DNA of 64,000 nucleotides, from assembly GCA_943330745.2 (NCBI GenBank), contig CALQIX020000010.1, positions 1 through 64,000 of the forward strand, in the 5' to 3' direction. The notes under the pieces are model-generated. The model was not told the DNA's origin. It did not search any database and saw only the letters and a program-made list of their open reading frames with translations. This document shows positions 39,210-50,828 of this stretch, piece by piece; the first letter of the stretch is position 1; every line of letters begins with the position of its first letter. The stretch is from Lishizhenia tianjinensis. GTDB taxonomy: Bacteria; Bacteroidota; Bacteroidia; Flavobacteriales_D; Crocinitomicaceae. The translations under genes were made by a program, and so were the position numbers.

Positions 39210-40760
39210 ATGGATATGAATACAGAAAATGGCAGAAAAGCAGGAAATAGGATAAAACAAGCTTCTAATGTCTTATTGAGTGATATTGGTAAAGTTCCGC
39301 CACAAGCTGTTGATATTGAGCAAATTGTACTTGGTGCCATGATGTTGGAAAAAAATGCAGTTTCCAAAACCATTGACATTCTCAAACCAGCTAGTTTTTA
39401 TGATCCGAAACATCAATATATTTATGCTGCAATTCGCGAATTATTCGCAAGTACAAATCCGATTGATTTAATTACTGTTTCTACACTGTTAAAACAGCGA
39501 GGTGAATTAGAAGCGTCTGGTGGAGCTGCTTATTTGTCTCAATTGACCAATCGTGTTGCATCTGCCGCACATATAGAATTCCACGCCCGCGTAATTTCGG
39601 AAAAGCACATTAAAAGAGAATTGATTCGAATGAGTAGCGATATTATTCGAGATTCATACGACGATACGAAAGATGTATTTGATGTGATGGGTAGTGCAGA
39701 AGGGGAGTTATTTCAAATTGCTGAAAATAATATGGGCAAGCAAGTGCAAAACTTACAAAGTGTTGTTCTTGAGGCGATTGAAGAAATCGAAAAGGCTTCT
39801 CAAAATTCAGATGGTATTTCTGGAATACCCACGGGATTCTTTGATTTGGATAAACTTACGTCTGGTTGGCAACGTTCTGATATGATCGTTATAGCCGCAA
39901 GACCTGCAATGGGTAAAACAGCTTTTGTTTTGTCTATGGCCCGAAACACAGCCGTTGATTATGGGAAAGCAGTTGCCCTTTTTTCGTTAGAAATGTCGTC
40001 TGTTCAGTTGGTGAAACGATTGATTTCTAGCGAGGCGCGAATTCATGCTGAAAAATTGAGAAAGGGAAATCTTAGAGAAGATGAATTTCAACAACTTCAT
40101 TCGCGGATAACGAAATTAGCTACGGCTCCGATTTTCATTGACGATACGGCTGGATTAAGTGTTTTTGATTTACGGGCCAAGTGTAGACGCCTTAAAATGC
40201 AACACAATATTGAATTAGTAATTATTGATTACTTGCAGTTAATGTCGGCAAAAGATGGAAAAGGTGGTGGAAATAGAGAGCAAGAAATATCCACTATTTC
40301 AAGATCGATTAAAGAAATTGCTAAAGAATTAAACATTCCAATTATTGCACTTTCTCAGTTGAGTCGTTCAGTTGAGCAAAGAGGAGGCGATAAACGTCCT
40401 ATATTGTCTGATCTTCGTGAATCGGGAGCTATTGAGCAAGATGCTGATATCGTCGGTTTTATTTATCGTCCTGATTATTATGGTTTCCTGGAAGATGAGG
40501 AGGGTAATCCAAATAATGGTATTGGAGAAATTATAATAGCGAAACATAGAAATGGTGCAACGGATCGCGTTCGTTTGCGTTTTGTTCAGGAATATGCTCG
40601 TTTTGAAAATATTGAATCATTTGAAGGAAATAGTATGAATAATACATTTAAAAATGCTAAAAATGAATCCTATACCATTACGGTTCCTAGTAATTTTGAT
40701 AATGTACAAGATTCTTCTCAAGATATTGATCTAGAAGGTGGAGAATCCGCTCCTTTTTAA
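39210..40760 (+). CDS. dnaB: Replicative DNA helicase
   Basis: DnaB is the ring helicase that unwinds DNA at the replication fork. The 516-residue protein has the N-terminal DnaB collar domain (PPQAVDIEQIVLGAMMLE, at about 28-135) and the RecA-like C-terminal domain from about 205: GIPTGFFDLDKLTSGWQ, Walker A ARPAMGKTAF near 230, FSLEMSS, Walker B with VIIDYLQLM and LSQLSRSVEQR, and DADIVGFIYRP. A longer acidic Asn-rich tail follows the core. No intein is present. It leads a compact run of five genes with overlaps or gaps of at most 10 nt. Confidence 0.95.
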   Translation: MDMNTENGRKAGNRIKQASNVLLSDIGKVPPQAVDIEQIVLGAMMLEKNAVSKTIDILKPASFYDPKHQYIYAAIRELFASTNPIDLITVSTLLKQRGELEASGGAAYLSQLTNRVASAAHIEFHARVISEKHIKRELIRMSSDIIRDSYDDTKDVFDVMGSAEGELFQIAENNMGKQVQNLQSVVLEAIEEIEKASQNSDGISGIPTGFFDLDKLTSGWQRSDMIVIAARPAMGKTAFVLSMARNTAVDYGKAVALFSLEMSSVQLVKRLISSEARIHAEKLRKGNLREDEFQQLHSRITKLATAPIFIDDTAGLSVFDLRAKCRRLKMQHNIELVIIDYLQLMSAKDGKGGGNREQEISTISRSIKEIAKELNIPIIALSQLSRSVEQRGGDKRPILSDLRESGAIEQDADIVGFIYRPDYYGFLEDEEGNPNNGIGEIIIAKHRNGATDRVRLRFVQEYARFENIESFEGNSMNNTFKNAKNESYTITVPSNFDNVQDSSQDIDLEGGESAPF

Positions 40761-40769
40761 TTATCAAAC

Positions 40770-42035
40770 ATGAAAAAATATTGCTGTCTATTACTTTTAC
40801 TTTTTTTAACCAAATTTTCGTGGTCAACTAAGTTGTTGGTTCCCATGGACGATAGTCAGTCTAATCATTTAAAGGCATATGGTCTGTCGTTTTGGGCTTT
40901 GGAAAAAGGTGTTGTCATTGAATGGTTACTCAATTATAAAGGAGGTTCATTTTTGTTTCCTCATTTAGTGAATCTGGAGGAAGAACTAATTATTCGTGGA
41001 ATTAAATACCAAGTCTTGACAGATGGTCAGGTAAATCAAATTAAAAATCAAATAGCTGATCCAGAGGTGAATATGGAGTTGATTCAATTGGAAAAAGCGC
41101 CAAAAATTGCAGTGTATTCTCCTCCAGGAACCCAACCTTGGGATGATGCTGTGACAATGGTTTTAAAATATGCAGAAATTCCCTATGATCAGATATATGA
41201 TTCGGCGATTGTAATGGGAGTTTTGCCCAAATACGATTGGCTGCATTTGCACCATGAAGATTTTACAGGGCAATATGGAAAATTCTATGCAAGTTTTAGA
41301 AATGCTCCGTGGTATAGAGAACAACAAGCATTGGCTGAGCGTGACGCAAAAATGTTAGGATTTGATAAAGTTTCAAAAATGAAATTAGCTGTCGCACTAA
41401 ACCTTAAGAATTTTGTGATTGGTGGTGGTTATTTGTTTACGATGTGTAGCGGTACAGATAGCTTTGATATTGCTCTCGCTGCTGAAAATACAGATATTTG
41501 CGAGTCCATGTACGATGGTGATCCAGCAGATCAAAAAGCACAAAATAAATTGGATTTCACACAAACTTTTGCCTTTAAAGATTTTATTTTAGAGAGAGAT
41601 CCCATGGTATATGAATATTCTAATATTGATGGTACGGATTTACACAGAATGGGAGTTGTGACGGAAGAAACGGATGTTTTTACTCTATTTGATTTTTCTG
41701 CTAAATGGGACGTTGTTCCAACTATGCTTACCCAATGCCACACCGATGAAGTGAAAGGATTTATGGGGCAGACAACCGATTTTAAAAAGGATTACATTAA
41801 AAATAATGTATTGATTCTCGGAGAAAACAAGGCGCTTGGTACTGCTAAGTATATTCATGGTGAATTTGGTCAAGGAACTTGGACGTTTTATGCTGGACAT
41901 GATCCAGAGGATTACGAGCACCGTGTGGGAGATCCTCACACAGATTTAAATTTACATTCCAATTCACCAGGTTATCGATTGATTTTGAATAACATTCTTT
42001 TTCCGGCAGCTAAAAAGAAAAAAAGAAAAACCTAA
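40770..42035 (+). CDS. Conserved secreted protein of Bacteroidota, often misnamed asparagine synthetase B
   Basis: This 421-residue exported protein (signal KKYCCLLLLLFLTKFSWS) belongs to a conserved family of Bacteroidota that is often labelled asparagine synthetase B, but I see neither the N-terminal glutaminase Cys nor the PP-loop SGGxDS of that enzyme. Conserved stretches are PMDDSQSNHLKAYG, YKGGSFLFPH, HLHHEDFTGQYGKFYASFR, FTMCSGTDSFDIALAA and IHGEFGQGTWTFYAGHDPEDY. The fold may be related to ThuA or class I amidotransferase-like domains, given FTMCSG and the late GHDPED. The tail ends in KKKKRKT. Its role is unknown. Placed between dnaB and tsaE with 9 nt and 2 nt gaps. Confidence 0.72.
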   Translation: MKKYCCLLLLLFLTKFSWSTKLLVPMDDSQSNHLKAYGLSFWALEKGVVIEWLLNYKGGSFLFPHLVNLEEELIIRGIKYQVLTDGQVNQIKNQIADPEVNMELIQLEKAPKIAVYSPPGTQPWDDAVTMVLKYAEIPYDQIYDSAIVMGVLPKYDWLHLHHEDFTGQYGKFYASFRNAPWYREQQALAERDAKMLGFDKVSKMKLAVALNLKNFVIGGGYLFTMCSGTDSFDIALAAENTDICESMYDGDPADQKAQNKLDFTQTFAFKDFILERDPMVYEYSNIDGTDLHRMGVVTEETDVFTLFDFSAKWDVVPTMLTQCHTDEVKGFMGQTTDFKKDYIKNNVLILGENKALGTAKYIHGEFGQGTWTFYAGHDPEDYEHRVGDPHTDLNLHSNSPGYRLILNNILFPAAKKKKRKT

Positions 42036-42037
42036 AA

Positions 42038-42466
42038 ATGGATTGGAAAGTTGAAAATGAATCAAGTATTCCGGATATAGCTGCTGAAATCAGTAAGTTT
42101 CTACCTCAAAAGGGGCTTGTTTTATTCGATGCTGAAATGGGTTCTGGTAAAACGACTTTAATTCGTTCACTTTTATCGATTTTCACCACTGAAGAATTTC
42201 AAGGTTCTCCCACTTATTCTTTGGTCAATCAATATACCTCGAAGCAAAATGCACCCATCTATCATTTTGATTTATATAGACTTAAGGACGAAAAAGAATT
42301 GTTTGATATTGGATTTGAAGATTATCTAACCGATAACGCGCTGTTATTCATTGAATGGCCTGAAAAAAGTTTAAAATTCCTTCCAGATAACATTTATTGG
42401 GTGTATATTCGTGTTAATGATAAGAATCACCGCTTAATTGAATTGAAACATGATAACAGATCCTGA
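42038..42466 (+). CDS. tsaE: tRNA threonylcarbamoyladenosine biosynthesis ATPase
   Basis: TsaE is the P-loop ATPase that works with TsaB and TsaD to form t6A at tRNA position 37. The 142-residue protein has Walker A EMGSGKTT (residues 33-40), the FQGSPTYSLVNQY stretch with the conserved Ser/Thr, YHFDLYRLKDEKEL and FIEWPEKS, all standard TsaE blocks. Length is typical. It follows the secreted protein by 2 nt, and its last 17 bases overlap the start of ald, so translation of the two is probably coupled. Confidence 0.93.
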   Translation: MDWKVENESSIPDIAAEISKFLPQKGLVLFDAEMGSGKTTLIRSLLSIFTTEEFQGSPTYSLVNQYTSKQNAPIYHFDLYRLKDEKELFDIGFEDYLTDNALLFIEWPEKSLKFLPDNIYWVYIRVNDKNHRLIELKHDNRS

Positions 42467-43670
42467 AGTATTAAAAGGTTTGATGCAGCAAGGAAACTTG
42501 CTACCACAAGAGGAAATGCTTGAAATTAAAAAGAGAAAGGGAAGTCTGTTCATTGGTATCCCAAAAGAAATCTCATTTCAAGAAAGGAGAGTGGGCTTGG
42601 TGCCAGAGGCTGTTCATTTATTAGTTGCAAATGGCCATCGTGTGCGCGTTGAAGCAGGTTGTGGCATTGGAGCAAATTTTTCGGACAACGATTATAGTGA
42701 AGCGGGTGCTGAAATTTGTTCAGATCGTAAAGAAATTTATGCGTGTGATATTATATTTAAAGTAACACCTCCTTCCGAAGAAGAAGCTGATTTAATGGTT
42801 GGTAATCAAACATTTATTTCAGCATTACAAATCGCTACTCAACCGAAAGAAATTCTTAAAAAATTAATCGCAAAGAAAATCACTGCTGTTGCTTGGGATT
42901 ATATTAAAGATGAGGAAGGCGTTTTCTCCGTTGTTCGTACCTTGGGCGAAATTGCGGGTACAACCTCTATTTTAATTGCAGGTGAATTACTTTCTTCTTA
43001 TTCGTCTGGAAAAGGAATGATGCTTGGTGGAATTGCTGGTGTGCAGCCTACAGAGGTCGTAGTAATTGGTGCAGGAACTGTGGGTGAATTTGCGACGCGC
43101 TCCGCAATTGGATTAGGAGCGTCAGTTAAGGTTTTTGATAATTCTCTTTCTAAATTACGTCGCTTGCAAAACAACATAGGATCAAGAGTTTATACCTCTA
43201 TAATTCAACCAAAGGTTTTGGCAAAAGCTATTCGTAGAGCTGATGTTGTAATCGGAGCACTTAGATCTCCATTGGGAAGAACTCCTTGTGTGGTTACTGA
43301 AACCATGATTGAATCAATGAAATTGGGTTCAGTTGCTGTGGACGTGAGTATTGACCAAGGCGGCTGTTTTGAAACAAGTAGAATCACCAATCACATTGAT
43401 CCCACGTTTGTGAAACATGGTGTAATTCATTATTGTGTTCCGAATATTGCATCAAGAGTTTCTAGAACGGCATCTTTTGCGCTTTCCAATATTTTTTCTC
43501 CTCTAATTCTCGAAATGGGAAATAACGGTGGTTCAGTTGAATTAATTCGCAGAAACGAAGGTTTTAGAAATGGTGTTTATATCTACAAAGGCGTATTAAC
43601 GAGTGAAGTTTTGGGAAAAGTATTTGATCTTAAATATAAAAATATAGAATTACTATTGCCCAGATTGTAA
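42450..43670 (+). CDS. ald: Alanine dehydrogenase
   Basis: Ald reversibly deaminates alanine to pyruvate with NAD. The 406-residue protein has IGIPKEISFQERRVGLVPEAV with the substrate Arg and Lys region, a GHRVRVEAGCGIGANF segment, the NAD-binding motif VVIGAGTVGEFA near 205, and VDVSIDQGGCFETS and HYCVPNIAS with the conserved residues near the C-terminus. It is slightly longer at the N-terminus than classical Ald (about 370), with a 30-residue lead MITDPEVLKGLMQQGN, which is common in Bacteroidota. It overlaps tsaE by 17 bases and shares one base with the next gene. Confidence 0.9.
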   Translation: MITDPEVLKGLMQQGNLLPQEEMLEIKKRKGSLFIGIPKEISFQERRVGLVPEAVHLLVANGHRVRVEAGCGIGANFSDNDYSEAGAEICSDRKEIYACDIIFKVTPPSEEEADLMVGNQTFISALQIATQPKEILKKLIAKKITAVAWDYIKDEEGVFSVVRTLGEIAGTTSILIAGELLSSYSSGKGMMLGGIAGVQPTEVVVIGAGTVGEFATRSAIGLGASVKVFDNSLSKLRRLQNNIGSRVYTSIIQPKVLAKAIRRADVVIGALRSPLGRTPCVVTETMIESMKLGSVAVDVSIDQGGCFETSRITNHIDPTFVKHGVIHYCVPNIASRVSRTASFALSNIFSPLILEMGNNGGSVELIRRNEGFRNGVYIYKGVLTSEVLGKVFDLKYKNIELLLPRL

Positions 43671-44110
43671 TGTTCAGTCAACTCAATTTACCGCAAGCGC
43701 AATTACAAATTTCAAAAAGAGAAAATCAGTTCTTTGTTACTTGTTTGGTTAGAAAGAAAAAGATTTTGTTAACTCCTGAAGAATGGGTTAGACAGCATTT
43801 AATTCATTATCTTGTTGTTTCCAAAGGTTTTGCTCTTGGTAGGTTAGGTGTTGAGGTTTCCTTGAAATTTAATGGATTAGCAAAAAGGGCAGATTTGGTT
43901 TATTTTAATCATGATTTGGAACCAACGCATGTTTTTGAATGTAAAGCTGCTACTGTCCAGCTAACAACTGAAACCATCTTTCAAATCGCAACTTATAATA
44001 GTAAAATAAAAGCCAATTTTTTGATGATTTCAAATGGATTAGATCATTATATTTTTGAAAATAAGGACTCAAATCTAATTCCAATAGCTGATTTTCCAGT
44101 GTTAAATTAA
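43670..44110 (+). CDS. HsdR_N-like restriction-nuclease-fold protein
   Basis: This 146-residue protein matches the HsdR_N_2 family (type I restriction enzyme R subunit, N-terminal-like), a small stand-alone nuclease-like fold. The PD-(D/E)xK-type core is visible as KRADLVYF (Asp) and HVFECKAA (ExK), with TTETIFQIATYN following. It lacks the helicase motor and any methyltransferase or specificity partner nearby, so it is probably not a working restriction system. Function is unknown. Its ATG overlaps the last base of ald (TAATG), so it is the last gene of the dnaB cluster. Confidence 0.8.
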   Translation: MFSQLNLPQAQLQISKRENQFFVTCLVRKKKILLTPEEWVRQHLIHYLVVSKGFALGRLGVEVSLKFNGLAKRADLVYFNHDLEPTHVFECKAATVQLTTETIFQIATYNSKIKANFLMISNGLDHYIFENKDSNLIPIADFPVLN

Positions 44111-44205
44111 GTCCATTGACGTTGTGAAAGTTACAGAATAAAAAAGCACTAAATAGTTATTGAATAAAAATCTGATCGTTCTTGAAGAAAAATACGTTTT
44201 TATAT

Positions 44206-46089
44206 ATGAATAATGTCCGCCTTTGTTATTTGATATTAACTTTAATTTCACCTGTTGCATTTGGACAAAAAGTAAAGTTTACGCATGTTGAGCCCATGAA
44301 CTGGTGGGTAGGGATGAAGCACCACCAAGTAGAGATTTTACTTCACGGAGATGCTATTTCAAAGTACCAAGTGGAAGTACAAGGGCTGCCTATTTTAGGC
44401 CTTGTGAAAACTGAAAACCCAAATTATATTTTTGTCACAGTTGAAACAGAGGGAAGAAATTCTGGAAAGTATCCCATTCGCTTATTGGACAAAGGAAAAG
44501 AATTGACGCATTTTGATTTTGAGTTGAAGGAACGCGAATATTTATCAGCAAACCGAAAGGGTTTTTCTTCTGCTGATGTGATTTATTTACTCATGCCTGA
44601 TCGATTTGCTAATACCTATCCAGGCGGCGACACACATCCCGAAACGATTGAAAAAGCAGATCGCTCCAATCCGAATGGGAGACATGGCGGAGATATTTCA
44701 GGAATTATCGACCATTTGAACTACATTAAAGAGCTGGGAGCTACTACCATCTGGACCACACCCTTGTTGGAGGATAATGAAGAAACATATTCCTATCACG
44801 GCTACGCACAATCTGATTTGTATAAAGTAGATCCACGATACGGAAACAATTACTATTTCCAATTTTTAGTGCAAGAAGCACATCGTCAAGGTTTGAAAGT
44901 GATTAAGGATGAAGTGCCGAATCATTGGTCCAGTAAACATTGGATGATAAAGGATTTACCTACAAAAACGTGGATACATGAATTTCCTTCATTCACTCGA
45001 TCTTCTTATCGTACAAGTACGCAAATGGATCCATATGCGAGCCAAAAAGATAAATCAGCTTCTGAAGATGGATGGTTTGATACGTCCATGCCGGATATGA
45101 ATCAATCGAACCCGCTTTTACTGAATTACCTCATACAAAATACCATTTGGTGGGTTGAATTCGCTGAATTGGACGGTCTTCGCGTGGACAAATATTCATA
45201 CAACGACAAGAAAGCAATTTCACTATGGACAAAAGCAATCATGGAAGAATATCCCAACTTGAACATGGTGGGGGAGGTTTGGTTGCACAATCAGGCACAA
45301 ATATCCTATTGGCAAAAAAATAGTCCGGTTGGCGCAATCGATTCCTACAACAGTAACTTACCTAGCGTGATGGATTTCACCCTGCATGATGCAATTAGCC
45401 AAGCATTCAAGGAAGAAAATCAGGGGTGGGACCAAGGAATGGTGCGTGTTTACGAGAATTTTGTGAATGACTTTTTATATGCAGATCCGAACAATTTACT
45501 GGTATTCATGGAAAATCACTATACACAACGTTTCAACGAATATTGCCCTTCACTTGCCGATTATAAAATGGCACTCACATTAATTGCAACAACACGCGGA
45601 ATTCCACAAATCTATTACGGAAGTGAAGTTGGAATGAAAGGCAGTAAGGAAAAAGGAGATGCAGACATTCGACAAGATTTTCCAGGTGGATGGAAAACCG
45701 AAGACAAACATTCGGCTTTTTACTCGAACCAAGAAGCAAATAAAAACTTAGGTATTCCAGGAAGAACGGAAACAGAAGAAGCTTATTTTCAATTTACAAA
45801 AACACTCTTGAATTGGCGCAAAAATCAGCCAGTGATTCATACGGGTAAATTCAAACAATTTGTGCCGGAAAACAATGTGTATGTGTATTTCAGATACGAC
45901 GAACAGGAAACTATTATGGTCATACTCAACAATTCCACCAAGGAAGAATCCATTAATTTGAACCGATTTAAAGAAGTGCTGAAGAGTAAGAAAATCTTCA
46001 AAAATGTCTTTACCAATGAAATGGTTAATGTTGATAATTCGATTATGATCCTAGGTCCTAAAACAGCGACTATTTTTAGGGTTAATTAA
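44206..46089 (+). CDS. GH13 amylase/neopullulanase-like protein with altered catalytic triad
   Basis: This 627-residue exported protein resembles SusA-type neopullulanases: a Sec signal ending at AFGQ, a beta-sandwich N-domain (VEPMNWWVGMKHHQVEILLHG), then the GH13 barrel. Region I is DEVPNHW, region II DGLRVDKYS (nucleophile Asp, codon 45187-45189) and region III GEVWLHN (acid/base Glu, codon 45274-45276). Region IV should read NHD but reads ENHYTQRF: the third catalytic residue is Tyr (45520-45522). TTRGIPQIYYGSEVGM follows, and a C-terminal beta domain ends the protein. Activity is therefore doubtful. By eye, codons here end in C or G more often than in the neighbours. The start at ATG 44206 is preferred over TTG 44182. 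A near-consensus TACGTTTT lies 5 nt upstream. Confidence 0.85.
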   Translation: MNNVRLCYLILTLISPVAFGQKVKFTHVEPMNWWVGMKHHQVEILLHGDAISKYQVEVQGLPILGLVKTENPNYIFVTVETEGRNSGKYPIRLLDKGKELTHFDFELKEREYLSANRKGFSSADVIYLLMPDRFANTYPGGDTHPETIEKADRSNPNGRHGGDISGIIDHLNYIKELGATTIWTTPLLEDNEETYSYHGYAQSDLYKVDPRYGNNYYFQFLVQEAHRQGLKVIKDEVPNHWSSKHWMIKDLPTKTWIHEFPSFTRSSYRTSTQMDPYASQKDKSASEDGWFDTSMPDMNQSNPLLLNYLIQNTIWWVEFAELDGLRVDKYSYNDKKAISLWTKAIMEEYPNLNMVGEVWLHNQAQISYWQKNSPVGAIDSYNSNLPSVMDFTLHDAISQAFKEENQGWDQGMVRVYENFVNDFLYADPNNLLVFMENHYTQRFNEYCPSLADYKMALTLIATTRGIPQIYYGSEVGMKGSKEKGDADIRQDFPGGWKTEDKHSAFYSNQEANKNLGIPGRTETEEAYFQFTKTLLNWRKNQPVIHTGKFKQFVPENNVYVYFRYDEQETIMVILNNSTKEESINLNRFKEVLKSKKIFKNVFTNEMVNVDNSIMILGPKTATIFRVN

Positions 46090-46109
46090 TGTAATTATTG
46101 CGAAAATTC

Positions 46110-46117
46110 TATATTTG
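46110..46117 (+). promoter_or_regulatory. Putative -7 promoter element of the Asp-box gene
   Basis: TATATTTG is an exact match, 18 nt before the ATG at 46136. It overlaps the alternative TTG start at 46115, which argues against that start. Confidence 0.55.
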
Positions 46118-46135
46118 ATACAAAATTTCTTTTGT

Positions 46136-49100
46136 ATGAAAATTGTTCGTTTGATTTCCTTACTGCTTTTTGTTTCTTCCTCAGTAGTTTATGGTCAAAA
46201 TTTATCCAAGCCTTCGGTTGTTGAAATTAGCACTTTACCTGAATGGGCTCAGAAAATGTATGGTGTTAATCCCTCCATTTATGAAGTGGATTTGCTTTAC
46301 AATGAATATTTTACTTCGCATTCCTTTGAAAAATCATACCATACACAATATTACAAACGTTGGAGAAGAAAGAATCTATCATTTGCGGATAATGCAGGTT
46401 ATATTCACCTCCCAACAGAAGCCGAAAACAAGCAAATTGAGCTAGAATATAGATCAAAAAATCAAGTAGAAAAATCATCGAATTGGTCCATTCTTGGGCC
46501 GATTACTAATTTCCAAGAGGGTGGAAATCCGGGCTCTGGACAAACCAATGTGTATAGCGTTGATCAATGTTTAGGGAACCCTTCAATCGTTTATTGTGGA
46601 ACAGAACCAGGAGAAGTTTATAAGAGTAACGACGGAGGACTAAATTGGGGCTTAGTCTCTAAAAATGAAGATTTTGGGAGTGGTGTCACCGCCGTAGAAG
46701 TTCACGTTTCCAATCCTGATATTGTGTTTGCAGGAGGAAATAAAGGTGTTTTTAGATCGTTAAACGGTGGTACAAACTGGATAAATGTATTACCGAATTC
46801 AAATTTTGGTGTAAATGAGATTTTAATTCACCCTGCCAATGATCAATTGGTATTTGCATGTACAGATAAAGGATTATATCGATCCTCGGATGGTGGAACA
46901 ACGTGGTCTTTACTTTTTGCAAATAAAACCTATGACATCAAGTTAAATACTGCGAATAATGCGATTTTGTATATAGTACGCAATAACCCTGCAACCAGTA
47001 TGTGTGAGTTTTATACCTCAAATGACTTTGGTTTGACATGGACAATTCAATCAACCGGTTGGCACACTTCCACGGATGCAGCTCGTAATGATGGTGGTGC
47101 GCGTATTGCAGTAACTCCAGCAGATCCCAATCGAATCTATGCTTATTTAATTGGAGAGTCAAAAGCAAATGATTTTGGCTATATCGGAGTATACCGAAGT
47201 GATGATGGCGGGATTACGTGGACATTACCTAATGGTCCGGCTGGTGGTCCATACACAACAGATCATGTTAACTTAGCTATTGGTTGGGCAACGTGGACCT
47301 ATCATCAAGGATTTTATAATTGTGCGTTGGCAGCATCCACAACAAATGCAGATGAAATTCTAATTGGTGGATTAAACTTATATCGTTCCACAGATGGTGG
47401 TGCTACTTTTACATCCGTTGCAGGCTATGTGGGTGGACCATTAAGCATGCATGTGGATATGCAAGATTTTAGAACAATTGGTTCCACAACGTGGATTTCA
47501 ACAGATGGTGGAATATATCGATCTACCGATTTTTTTACTTCCAACTTTGAATTTCGCATGTCTGGTGTTCATGGTTCTGATTATTGGGGATTTGGTAGTG
47601 GCTGGAACGAAGATGTTTTGGTTGGAGGCTTGTATCACAACGGAAATTTAGTATATCATGAAAATTACGGCACTGGAAATTTTTTAGAATTAGGCGGTGG
47701 AGAAGCACCGACAGGTTATGTGAACCCTGGACAAAATCGAAAAACCTATTTCTCGGATATTTCTGGTAAGGTTATACCGGTAAACCTAAATGATCCCATC
47801 GCTGGAGCGGCTTTTGGAATGGCTCCTAATGAAAGTTATTACGCCGCTGAGTCAAGTGAAATGGAATTTCATCCGAACTGTTATTCCATTGCTTATATCG
47901 GAAAGGATAATGCCATATGGAAAACAACTGATGGAGGAGCTTCTTTCAATCTATTATATGCTTTTGGAACCAATCCGGCTGATCAAGTTAAATACATCGA
48001 AGTTTCAAGTTCCAATCCGAATGTCATTTATTTAAATCAACAACCTGCTTCTGGATCAAATGGAACCCTTTGGAAAACAAGTGATGGCGGAGCTAGTTGG
48101 ACCTCGGTAAATAAACCCAATGGAAATAGTCGCAGAATGTTATTAGCCATAAATCCACTTGATGAAAATCAATTATGGATTGCTTATCCTGATGGATCAA
48201 ATGGATTTAAAGTATATAAAACAACTAATTCTGGTCAAAACTGGGAAAATTGGACTTCTTCCATTTTTAATAATGAATCGGTGCAGTCGATAATCTATGT
48301 TGCTGGAACAGATGGTGGAGTTTATATTGCAACCAATAAAGCGGTTTACTACCGAAACAATTCCAATCAATTTCAACTAGAAAATGCAGGTTTGCCCTTG
48401 TTTACGAGTGGTAATATTTTACATCCATTTTATAGAGACAATAAAGTAAGGTTGGCTACCTATGGAAAAGGAATTTGGGAAAGTGCCTTGTCTGAAACGC
48501 CAACCATTCCAATTGCTCGAGCGATGGTTGATAAATTAGATCAGGTTGTGGTTTGTGCCATTGATTCATTTTATTTTGAGGATCATTCCTTTTTGAATCA
48601 CACCAATGCTTCATGGAGTTGGTCTTTTCCAACTGGAAATCCAAGTGTTTCTAATCAACGTAATCCGGTGATTTATTTTAATCAACCCGGAAATCACCAA
48701 GCTATTTTGACGATTACGGATGGAAATGGAAACACGGATTCAGATACATTGATGGTTTCGGTAAACTTTTTTACCTTACCCACATCGGTTTCTGAGGGGT
48801 TTGAAAATGGGTTTGTGCCAACAGGATTCGAAATTAATAATCCGGCAAACAATGCACAATGGTCGTTGTCTTCTACTGCTGGAGCATATGGAAATTCAAC
48901 CCATTCTGCCATTTTCGATAATTACAACAACGATTCACAAGGAGGAATTGATGATTTAATTATGCATTTTGATGCCACAGCGATTCAATCCAGTCCGTTT
49001 TTAAAATTTGATGTGGCCTATGCCCGTTGGGGAGCAGGTTACAGTGATACATTGGAAGTATTGGTATCAACTGATTGTGGAACTACGTATCAATCTCTTT

Positions 49101-49549
49101 ATCTCAAAGGAGGTACAACATTAGCTACTTCTCCCGATTTTCAAGAATTCTTTACGCCAACGGCTGAACAATGGTGCACGGATTCTGTAGATTTAGCACT
49201 ATTTTCAGGACAAACCAATGTACAGGTCGCATTTCGAAACAGAGGTTATTTTGGAAATACGATTTATCTAGACAACATCAATATTGGAAGTTCTGTTTCT
49301 GTGGAGGAGGTTTATACCAATGAAATTCATGTGTATCCGAATCCAGTGGGAACAGGACAAGAACTTGTCATTAGCTATCCAGGAGATGCTACCATACAAT
49401 TATTGGATGCTAAAGGATCTCTTATTTATAGTGCCAAAGGCTCAAAAGAAACGCATTTTAGTATTGACAAGTCAATTGCTTCAGGGGTCTATATGGTTCA
49501 GGTATCAACTCCAACAAAAATTTGGAATAAGCGAGTTATTATTCAATAA
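46136..49549 (+). CDS. Secreted Asp-box/VPS10-like beta-propeller protein with PKD and T9SS sorting domains
   Basis: This 1137-residue exported protein begins with a Sec signal (KIVRLISLLLFVSSSVVYGQ). At least eight Asp-box (BNR) motifs of the form SxDGGxTW occur between about residues 160 and 700, for example SSDGGTTW, SDDGGITW, TSDGGASW and TTNSGQNW, which suggests one or two propellers of the sortilin/sialidase kind. Residues about 801-878 form a PKD domain (WSWSFPTGNPSVSNQ, then AILTITDGNGN). A jelly-roll-like part follows. The end from about 1058 (IHVYPNPVGTG to NKRVIIQ) is a T9SS type A sorting domain. No catalytic triad is evident, so binding or adhesion is as likely as hydrolysis. Confidence 0.87.
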   Translation: MKIVRLISLLLFVSSSVVYGQNLSKPSVVEISTLPEWAQKMYGVNPSIYEVDLLYNEYFTSHSFEKSYHTQYYKRWRRKNLSFADNAGYIHLPTEAENKQIELEYRSKNQVEKSSNWSILGPITNFQEGGNPGSGQTNVYSVDQCLGNPSIVYCGTEPGEVYKSNDGGLNWGLVSKNEDFGSGVTAVEVHVSNPDIVFAGGNKGVFRSLNGGTNWINVLPNSNFGVNEILIHPANDQLVFACTDKGLYRSSDGGTTWSLLFANKTYDIKLNTANNAILYIVRNNPATSMCEFYTSNDFGLTWTIQSTGWHTSTDAARNDGGARIAVTPADPNRIYAYLIGESKANDFGYIGVYRSDDGGITWTLPNGPAGGPYTTDHVNLAIGWATWTYHQGFYNCALAASTTNADEILIGGLNLYRSTDGGATFTSVAGYVGGPLSMHVDMQDFRTIGSTTWISTDGGIYRSTDFFTSNFEFRMSGVHGSDYWGFGSGWNEDVLVGGLYHNGNLVYHENYGTGNFLELGGGEAPTGYVNPGQNRKTYFSDISGKVIPVNLNDPIAGAAFGMAPNESYYAAESSEMEFHPNCYSIAYIGKDNAIWKTTDGGASFNLLYAFGTNPADQVKYIEVSSSNPNVIYLNQQPASGSNGTLWKTSDGGASWTSVNKPNGNSRRMLLAINPLDENQLWIAYPDGSNGFKVYKTTNSGQNWENWTSSIFNNESVQSIIYVAGTDGGVYIATNKAVYYRNNSNQFQLENAGLPLFTSGNILHPFYRDNKVRLATYGKGIWESALSETPTIPIARAMVDKLDQVVVCAIDSFYFEDHSFLNHTNASWSWSFPTGNPSVSNQRNPVIYFNQPGNHQAILTITDGNGNTDSDTLMVSVNFFTLPTSVSEGFENGFVPTGFEINNPANNAQWSLSSTAGAYGNSTHSAIFDNYNNDSQGGIDDLIMHFDATAIQSSPFLKFDVAYARWGAGYSDTLEVLVSTDCGTTYQSLYLKGGTTLATSPDFQEFFTPTAEQWCTDSVDLALFSGQTNVQVAFRNRGYFGNTIYLDNINIGSSVSVEEVYTNEIHVYPNPVGTGQELVISYPGDATIQLLDAKGSLIYSAKGSKETHFSIDKSIASGVYMVQVSTPTKIWNKRVIIQ

Positions 49550-49958: not shown

Positions 49959-50828
49959 TTAGGAATTATTCAATTTCGAAAGAAGTTCCGGTAAGAATTC
50001 ATTGAGTCTAGAAAAAGCAAACCATTTCTTACCTAGGTCTTTAATAGAAGCGCCAAAATGATACAATTCTTTTTGGTCAATTATTAGAAATCGGTCATGT
50101 GCAAGTTTCAAGTGTTTGATCTCAACGGTTGGATATTGCTCGTTGTATTTGGCTACATCTAAGTGCAATTGGGCATTTATTTTATGTGTGTATATCATTG
50201 CTTGACAATTCTTATTTCGTTTGCTGAGCATTAAAAGCGTTGTTTCATCTACATAATTATCAATTAATGTTATCGATTTTTTCGCTGTTTTAATAAGATC
50301 AACTGTAAAGACATAGGCATCAAATAGTTGTCCTTCGAAGAAAATTCCTTTTGAAGGTAATAATGTGTTTTCATCAAATGATTGCAGAATTTTATTTACG
50401 TTTTTATTTGTCTCAACTAGTTTGTTTTCAAGGACTAGCAATCGGTTAAACATTTCGGCATTGGAACCAATCTCATTACGCATTTCCACAAAAGTTTCCA
50501 TGATTTGAATACTTACTTGAATAGCCGTTTCACTTCGAAGGATGGCTGAAAGCATGGCAACTCCTTGTTCTGTAAAAACAAATGGGTTTACTGATGCATG
50601 TTTTAAATTTGTTAACCGGTCACAATTTGTGACCAGTTCATACTTCTCGCTTAGCGTTAATTGAAAACTAAAATTCTCAGGAAATCGTTCTTTATTTCGC
50701 TTAACTGCTTGGTTAAGTACTTTTGTTTGAACATCGTACAAAACAGCCAAATCTCGATCGAGCATTACCTGTTTTCCTCTAATCGTAAAGATTTTTGAAT
50801 GTATTTCCTCCCTTTTTAAAAGATTCAT
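49959..50828 (-). CDS. ORF6N-domain protein with C-terminal PLD-like half site
   Basis: This 289-residue protein begins with an ORF6N DNA-binding domain (about 8-95): IFTIRGKQVMLDRDLAVLYDVQTKVLNQAVKRN, then RFPENFSFQLT, which is typical of phage antirepressor-type proteins that are also widespread as chromosomal genes in Bacteroidota. A helical linker with a coiled-coil character spans about 115-160. The C-terminal part (about 165-285) resembles a phospholipase-D-like fold with one half motif HDRFLIIDQKELYHFGASIKDLGKKW; a single HxD site would need a dimer for activity. It is a likely accessory gene. Function is unknown. Confidence 0.82.
   Translation of the reverse strand: MNLLKREEIHSKIFTIRGKQVMLDRDLAVLYDVQTKVLNQAVKRNKERFPENFSFQLTLSEKYELVTNCDRLTNLKHASVNPFVFTEQGVAMLSAILRSETAIQVSIQIMETFVEMRNEIGSNAEMFNRLLVLENKLVETNKNVNKILQSFDENTLLPSKGIFFEGQLFDAYVFTVDLIKTAKKSITLIDNYVDETTLLMLSKRNKNCQAMIYTHKINAQLHLDVAKYNEQYPTVEIKHLKLAHDRFLIIDQKELYHFGASIKDLGKKWFAFSRLNEFLPELLSKLNNS

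Follow-up and report, generated by a model that had tools for sequence, protein, structure and literature searches.

What does a GH13 gene encode when two residues of its catalytic triad are kept and the third has changed? The question is raised by a gene on the forward strand of the window, the whole 64,000-nucleotide stretch of Lishizhenia tianjinensis DNA that was analysed here. Based on its open reading frame and on Pfam matches to PF09087, PF00128 and PF10438, all above cut-off, the gene (44182–46089, +) belongs to the SusA/cyclomaltodextrinase-like group GH13_46 and encodes 635 amino acids if read from the TTG codon at 44182. In our judgement the ATG at 44206 is the likelier start; residue numbers are counted from the TTG and would each be 8 lower from the ATG. 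The best solved relatives by sequence were SusA (9fyz), BcGH13A (9dcq) and the cyclomaltodextrinase of Flavobacterium sp. 92 (1h3g). An AlphaFold model of the window protein, with a mean pLDDT of 88.1, matched the fold of 1h3g with a Z score of 46.6 (589 residues, 1.8 Å) and that of SusA with a Z score of 46.4 (584 residues).

A preliminary description of this locus had pointed to the replacement of the catalytic Asp of region IV by Tyr. Positions 45511–45522 read GAAAATCACTAT, four codons for E N H Y (GAA AAT CAC TAT) in the frame of the 44182–46089 ORF, and region IV of the protein is ENHYTQRF, with Tyr447 (TAT, 45520–45522, +) standing where the third catalytic Asp is expected. Homologues were collected from 60 related genomes, 39 of which had a match; loci were obtained for 30 matches, the window's own included, and a further 79 loci were found in genome contigs through six short peptide patterns. 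A homologous ORF with E ≤ 1e-60 was obtained from 109 of the 110 loci (L001–L110), L110 being a short piece that was dropped. Exclusion of the window's own copies (L001 and L002) left 107 loci, or 85 distinct sequences, in which some genomes are present twice; more distant relatives in the 60-genome match list lie outside the alignment. All 104 loci that cover position 447 have Asp there, the other three not covering it, and Tyr occurs in no aligned homologue, which is the comparison that had been proposed as a check. Counted as distinct sequences, the position is Asp in 83 and not covered in two.

The nucleophile Asp336 of region II (45187–45189, +) and the acid/base Glu365 of region III (45274–45276, +) are both retained, as had been reported, and each is identical in 107 of 107 homologous loci. 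Missed at that stage were a second change in the active site, T337K, and the loss of neighbouring starch genes. Lys337 (AAA, 45190–45192, +) stands directly after the nucleophile, where all 107 homologous loci have Thr. In a set of 82 sequences thinned to below 97% identity, and counting columns filled in 80% or more of them, 64 columns were invariant; the window protein breaks just two of these, at positions 337 and 447. The nearest relative (L003) breaks none of its 62 invariant columns, and its protein on contig L032, 92% identical to the window protein, keeps Thr and Asp at the two positions. In one homologous sequence, present twice (L022 and L062), region III reads NIVNEVW rather than NIVGEVW, the conserved Gly beside the acid/base Glu being Asn.

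Two further interpretations of Tyr447 were considered and rejected. An aligned Asp supplied from a neighbouring position, raised beforehand as something that might speak against the replacement, was not found: no covering sequence is gapped in region IV, and Asn445, His446 and Arg450, invariant in a 25-sequence alignment, are in register, so no shifted Asp substitutes for Asp447. The second was that Tyr447 is a trait of a clade. An exact degenerate DNA pattern for NHYTxRF, which is blind to other region IV variants, was searched in 399 genomes of the order and occurred in 25 of them, at 28 places; 20 of these were available as loci, and among the 20 only that of the window gene is similar to the window protein. 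No aligned homologue shares the Tyr.

Another reading is that one of the two codons, or both, reflects an error of sequencing or assembly. The change from GAT to TAT is a single base, and the genome collections contain one genome per species. However, the changes affect two invariant active-site codons, separated by 330 bases, which makes a single sequencing error less likely, and the assembly error that had been suggested at the Tyr codon loses ground for the same reason. The Lys codon AAA is one base from the ACA of two homologues (L034 and L040) and two from the ACT of the nearest relative. Moreover, residues 31–635 are 95.0% identical to the relative without a frameshift, the window's genome (G000) is rated 99.94% complete and 0.13% contaminated, and the missing neighbours described below are an independent reason to expect such changes. 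We therefore regard an error as very improbable.

According to the available text of PMC9781549, GH13_46 proteins are characterized by an MPDLN motif in region V, by two adjacent Trp residues, and by a Tyr-(Gly/Ser/Pro)-Tyr motif that ends region II. The window protein has MPDMN at 303–307, with Met in place of Leu, WW at 323–324, and YSY at 338–340 as the aromatic end of region II, which fits the pattern. The same source describes a Glu immediately after the proton donor of region III as well conserved for the subfamily. This Glu is absent from the window protein, in which region III has GEV; the aligned homologues vary here between Val, Ile, Thr, Ala and Glu, and hence the published feature fails for the genus as well. 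An intact Asp-Glu-Asp triad was used as a selection criterion in that work (PMC9781549). Since its third Asp is Tyr447, the window protein is a GH13_46 descendant by homology and not a triad-complete member.

The surroundings of the gene differ from those in related genomes. In the window the order is dnaB, a gene for a 421-aa protein, tsaE, ald, a gene for a 146-aa protein, and then directly the GH13_46 gene; Pfam gave labels for all the flanking genes except that of the 421-aa protein. In the nearest relative (G014, rated 85% complete with 3% contamination), contig L127 carries dnaB, the 421-aa gene, tsaE and ald, contig L126 carries ald, the 146-aa HSDR_N_2 gene and a gene for a secreted protein with a T9SS tail, and contig L032 carries a T9SS alpha-amylase, CotH, GH13_46 and a 1144-aa T9SS protein. 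Contigs L126 and L032 overlap by approximately 350 bases, inexactly, and the adjacency across this break in the relative was inferred with the help of the gene order in L033, from a more distant species, where the secreted T9SS protein, the alpha-amylase, CotH and GH13_46 follow each other as in the relative. Pfam finds only the tail of the secreted protein of L126, and its repeats appear SusE/F-like by eye.

In the window, none of the secreted T9SS protein, the T9SS alpha-amylase and CotH is present at the relative's position before GH13_46. The left flank of the gap is the gene for the 146-aa HSDR_N_2-type protein (43670–44110, +), whose orthologue in the relative precedes the secreted T9SS protein. 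The right flank, shared with L032, includes the gene for the 1144-aa T9SS-sorted sortilin/BNR-type protein (46115–49549, +), and nucleotide identity to L032 (90.6%) extends from 44266 to 49291. The junction between them lies at 44108–44266 (+), with approximate ends; at this place the relative has the three genes with a promoter-like site before them. Because L033 carries the relative's gene order, the state in the window is best read as a deletion, and the comparison of gene orders suggests that the window most likely lost the three genes before GH13_46. An alignment revealed nothing convincing as a CotH remnant in the 95 bases that precede the window gene. Nor has the lost secreted T9SS protein a copy at another place in G000, where a search gave 8 matches, all to the tail only, from residue 262 onward.

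The promoter-like site was affected too. The motif TTG-N18-21-TAnnTTTG, a shortened form of the Bacteroides −33/−7 pattern (PMC2483708), occurs before the first gene of the row at 1219 in L126 and also in L033, and was found in 0.8% of simple shuffles of the relative's 185-base stretch. It is absent from the 95 bases preceding the window gene, for which 0.3% of shuffles have one. These are pattern matches in short stretches and not proof of a promoter. The window gene could be transcribed by read-through, as it is immediately preceded by genes of the same orientation.

Next to the local loss, we considered the starch genes in the genome and in the genus. The search covered GH13, GH31, SusD (PF07980), GH77 and GH97. 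The window gene is the one GH13 gene in G000, and neither a GH31 match nor a SusD (PF07980) match was found in this genome. Both were found in five of the six relatives tested beside it; in the sixth, G003, neither was found, and this genome is also without a GH13. All seven genomes were negative for GH77 and GH97, which are for this reason not discriminating. Each of the seven has CotH proteins at other loci. GH13 was searched in 25 of the 37 same-genus genomes (own included), with 18 positive and 7 without a match; G000 had 1 match and the other 17 positive genomes had 2 to 8, counts that include split genes. As an observation on the genus, 7 of 24 same-genus relatives (G003, G006, G012, G017, G026, G027 and G032) had no GH13 match, and hence alpha-glucan use is patchy in the genus.

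We consider that the gene is probably a former GH13_46 maltodextrin- or cyclodextrin-cleaving enzyme in decay, that is, a pseudogenisation so recent that the reading frame has not yet been interrupted. Changed invariant functional residues combined with missing pathway partners are one of the marks of a pseudogene in decay, and both were found here. In GH13 enzymes an Asp acts as nucleophile and a Glu as acid/base, while the role of the third Asp is to hold the subsite −1 sugar and to favour the transition state. The gene losses would have come first; the missing substrate supply, and perhaps weak expression, may then have relaxed selection on the enzyme. Replacement of Asp447 would remove the carboxylate that holds the subsite −1 sugar and favours the transition state, as Tyr has no carboxylate and is larger than Asp, and Lys337 in place of Thr beside the nucleophile may disturb the same place. 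Taken together, the two substitutions would be expected to abolish hydrolysis or to reduce it strongly. The preliminary description had held that loss of this Asp normally abolishes hydrolysis, which is a fair rule and makes lost hydrolysis likely here; as a rule it has a published exception in BmaN1 (PMC5347038), discussed below.

Several observations count against decay. The ORF is open through 635 codons with no internal stop or frameshift, and a signal-peptide-like start, judged by eye, persists. The pairwise dN/dS between the window GH13_46 gene and its L032 counterpart is 0.089 (0.057–0.138), similar to that of the neighbouring 146-aa gene (0.092) and 1144-aa gene (0.115), which indicates that since the split the gene has for the most part evolved under purifying selection; the values were 0.009–0.136 for dnaB, tsaE, the 421-aa gene and two pieces of ald. 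Branch models, which like the other selection tests were chosen after the active-site changes had been seen, gave a different picture for the window branch. With 16 taxa its dN/dS was 0.49 versus 0.044 elsewhere (p = 0.003), a value compatible with 1, with a lower limit between 0.04 and 0.1 and no upper limit up to 2. When the branches were fitted separately, the values were 0.37 for the window and 0.047 for the relative, a difference that was not significant (p = 0.17). With 8 taxa, the window branch was at 0.52 (p = 0.003) and its contrast to the relative's branch had p = 0.26; the relative's branch, freed alone, was also raised (0.108, p = 0.03), which again counts against decay.

When the differences were assigned by outgroup majority, the 25 nonsynonymous ones were divided into 12 on the window branch and 8 on the relative's branch, and the 70 synonymous ones into 27 and 31, the rest being tied; there is no strong contrast between the two branches. 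In favour of decay, 3 of the 5 single-sequence states of the window protein fell in invariant columns, versus 40 of 538 in 42 others (Fisher p = 0.004), and in 2 of 4 versus 40 of 538 without D447Y (p = 0.03), in a test that left out sequences shorter than 580 residues or at least 97% identical to another. Overall, the gene was under strong constraint for most of its history, and a few recent changes are concentrated in the active site.

The dS values to the relative were 0.70 for dnaB, 0.86 for the 421-aa gene, 0.24 and 0.43 for the ald pieces, 0.27 for the GH13 gene and 0.67 for the 1144-aa gene; the variation between 39210–44110 and 44266–46089 may hint at recombination or at codon constraint that differs between genes. 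The 1144-aa T9SS gene contains, in its N-terminal part, approximately 900 bases (46282–47182) that are 76–79% identical to the relative, versus 87–98% in the surrounding 300-base steps, and the C-terminal sorting domain of the protein also differs by eye. This mosaic suggests recombination. Further downstream, an ORF6N-domain protein (PF10543) is encoded at 49959–50828 (−); the ORF6N domain often occurs in phage-derived regulators.

The gene might instead encode a retained pseudoenzyme that no longer cuts alpha-glucan and still binds it with the N-terminal domain and the cleft, serving for instance to sense or capture sugars. The open frame and the pairwise dN/dS of 0.089 agree with this, as do N- and C-terminal domains above the Pfam cut-offs and the fit of the model to 1h3g and SusA, though a single model cannot tell whether the substitutions matter. 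On the other hand, the genome is without a PF07980 SusD, a GH31 and a second GH13, the promoter-like site is gone, and Tyr and Lys occur in no aligned homologue, so that no lineage is seen keeping such a form. We consider a retained pseudoenzyme unlikely. A starch-binding pseudoenzyme had been among the readings proposed for the Tyr, and T337K together with the loss of the neighbouring starch genes favours decay over such a dedicated binding role.

If decay is the correct reading, the locus gives a clear snapshot of one way in which a pathway for polysaccharide degradation may be lost, with the neighbours and the promoter-like site gone and the active site of the last GH13 damaged while the frame is open. 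If genes were annotated from homology only, this bacterium would be assigned a neopullulanase/cyclomaltodextrinase activity, which it probably does not have. The interpretation given in the preliminary description is partly supported.

Among known systems, the closest in sequence and fold are the Flavobacterium sp. 92 cyclomaltodextrinase (1h3g) and the Bacteroides thetaiotaomicron neopullulanase SusA (9fyz), with which the window protein shares the three Pfam domains, 40–42% identity over 584–589 residues at Z scores of about 46, an MPDxN region V, the paired Trp and the two Tyr ending region II. Unlike both, it has Tyr in place of the third catalytic Asp and Lys rather than Thr after the nucleophile. 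A different comparison is offered by BmaN1 of Bacillus megaterium, a GH13_45 enzyme with Lys202-Asp203 and His294 that was reported to convert starch to glucose and maltose at 8.4 U/mg (PMC5347038), and for which kinetic constants are given in PMC11448133. This enzyme, which lacks the third Asp and in which a Lys adjoins the presumed nucleophile, an Asp, was reported active (PMC5347038), and lends some weight to the idea that Asp336-Lys337, Glu365 and Tyr447 support slow hydrolysis or another reaction. However, the aberrant triad of BmaN1 is common to 27 listed, almost identical sequences, whereas the change here was found in one genome; the Lys-Asp order is reversed; Tyr is unable to supply a carboxylate; and the genome lacks most of the pathway genes that were searched for. 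An active enzyme with a changed triad is thus highly unlikely. There is a faint chance that Asp336-Lys337 and Tyr447 form a changed but working site, perhaps shifted to transfer or tight binding, which would be a second independent route, after BmaN1, to a GH13 enzyme that has a Lys next to the nucleophile and has lost the transition-state Asp.

The window protein resembles the BmaN1 group, described as having an 'aberrant catalytic triad' (PMC5347038), in the replaced third Asp and in a Lys adjacent to the nucleophile Asp, which is a curious parallel between the two. BmaN1-type GH13_45 sequences have Lys at the nucleophile column followed by Asp, His at the third column and LPDlx in region V (PMC5347038, PMC11239784), in contrast to the Asp-Lys, Tyr and MPDMN of the window protein: its Lys follows the Asp where that of BmaN1 precedes it, its third residue is Tyr where BmaN1 has His, and the two belong to different GH13 subfamilies. 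In BmaN1, unlike here, the change is common to a group and activity was shown (PMC5347038). A literature search of sources open without subscription found no paper joining GH13, pseudoenzyme and catalytic residues. A study of GH13_48 and GH13_49 removed 17 of 364 sequences that lacked the full catalytic machinery, as likely sequencing errors or ongoing pseudogenisation (PMC11239784). With these sequences, which belong to other subfamilies, decay of the window gene shares the missing catalytic residues, and in the window, unlike in the available text of that study, the loss of neighbouring pathway genes is documented. The window gene is an ordinary instance of a GH13 without its full triad, unusually well explained by its surroundings.
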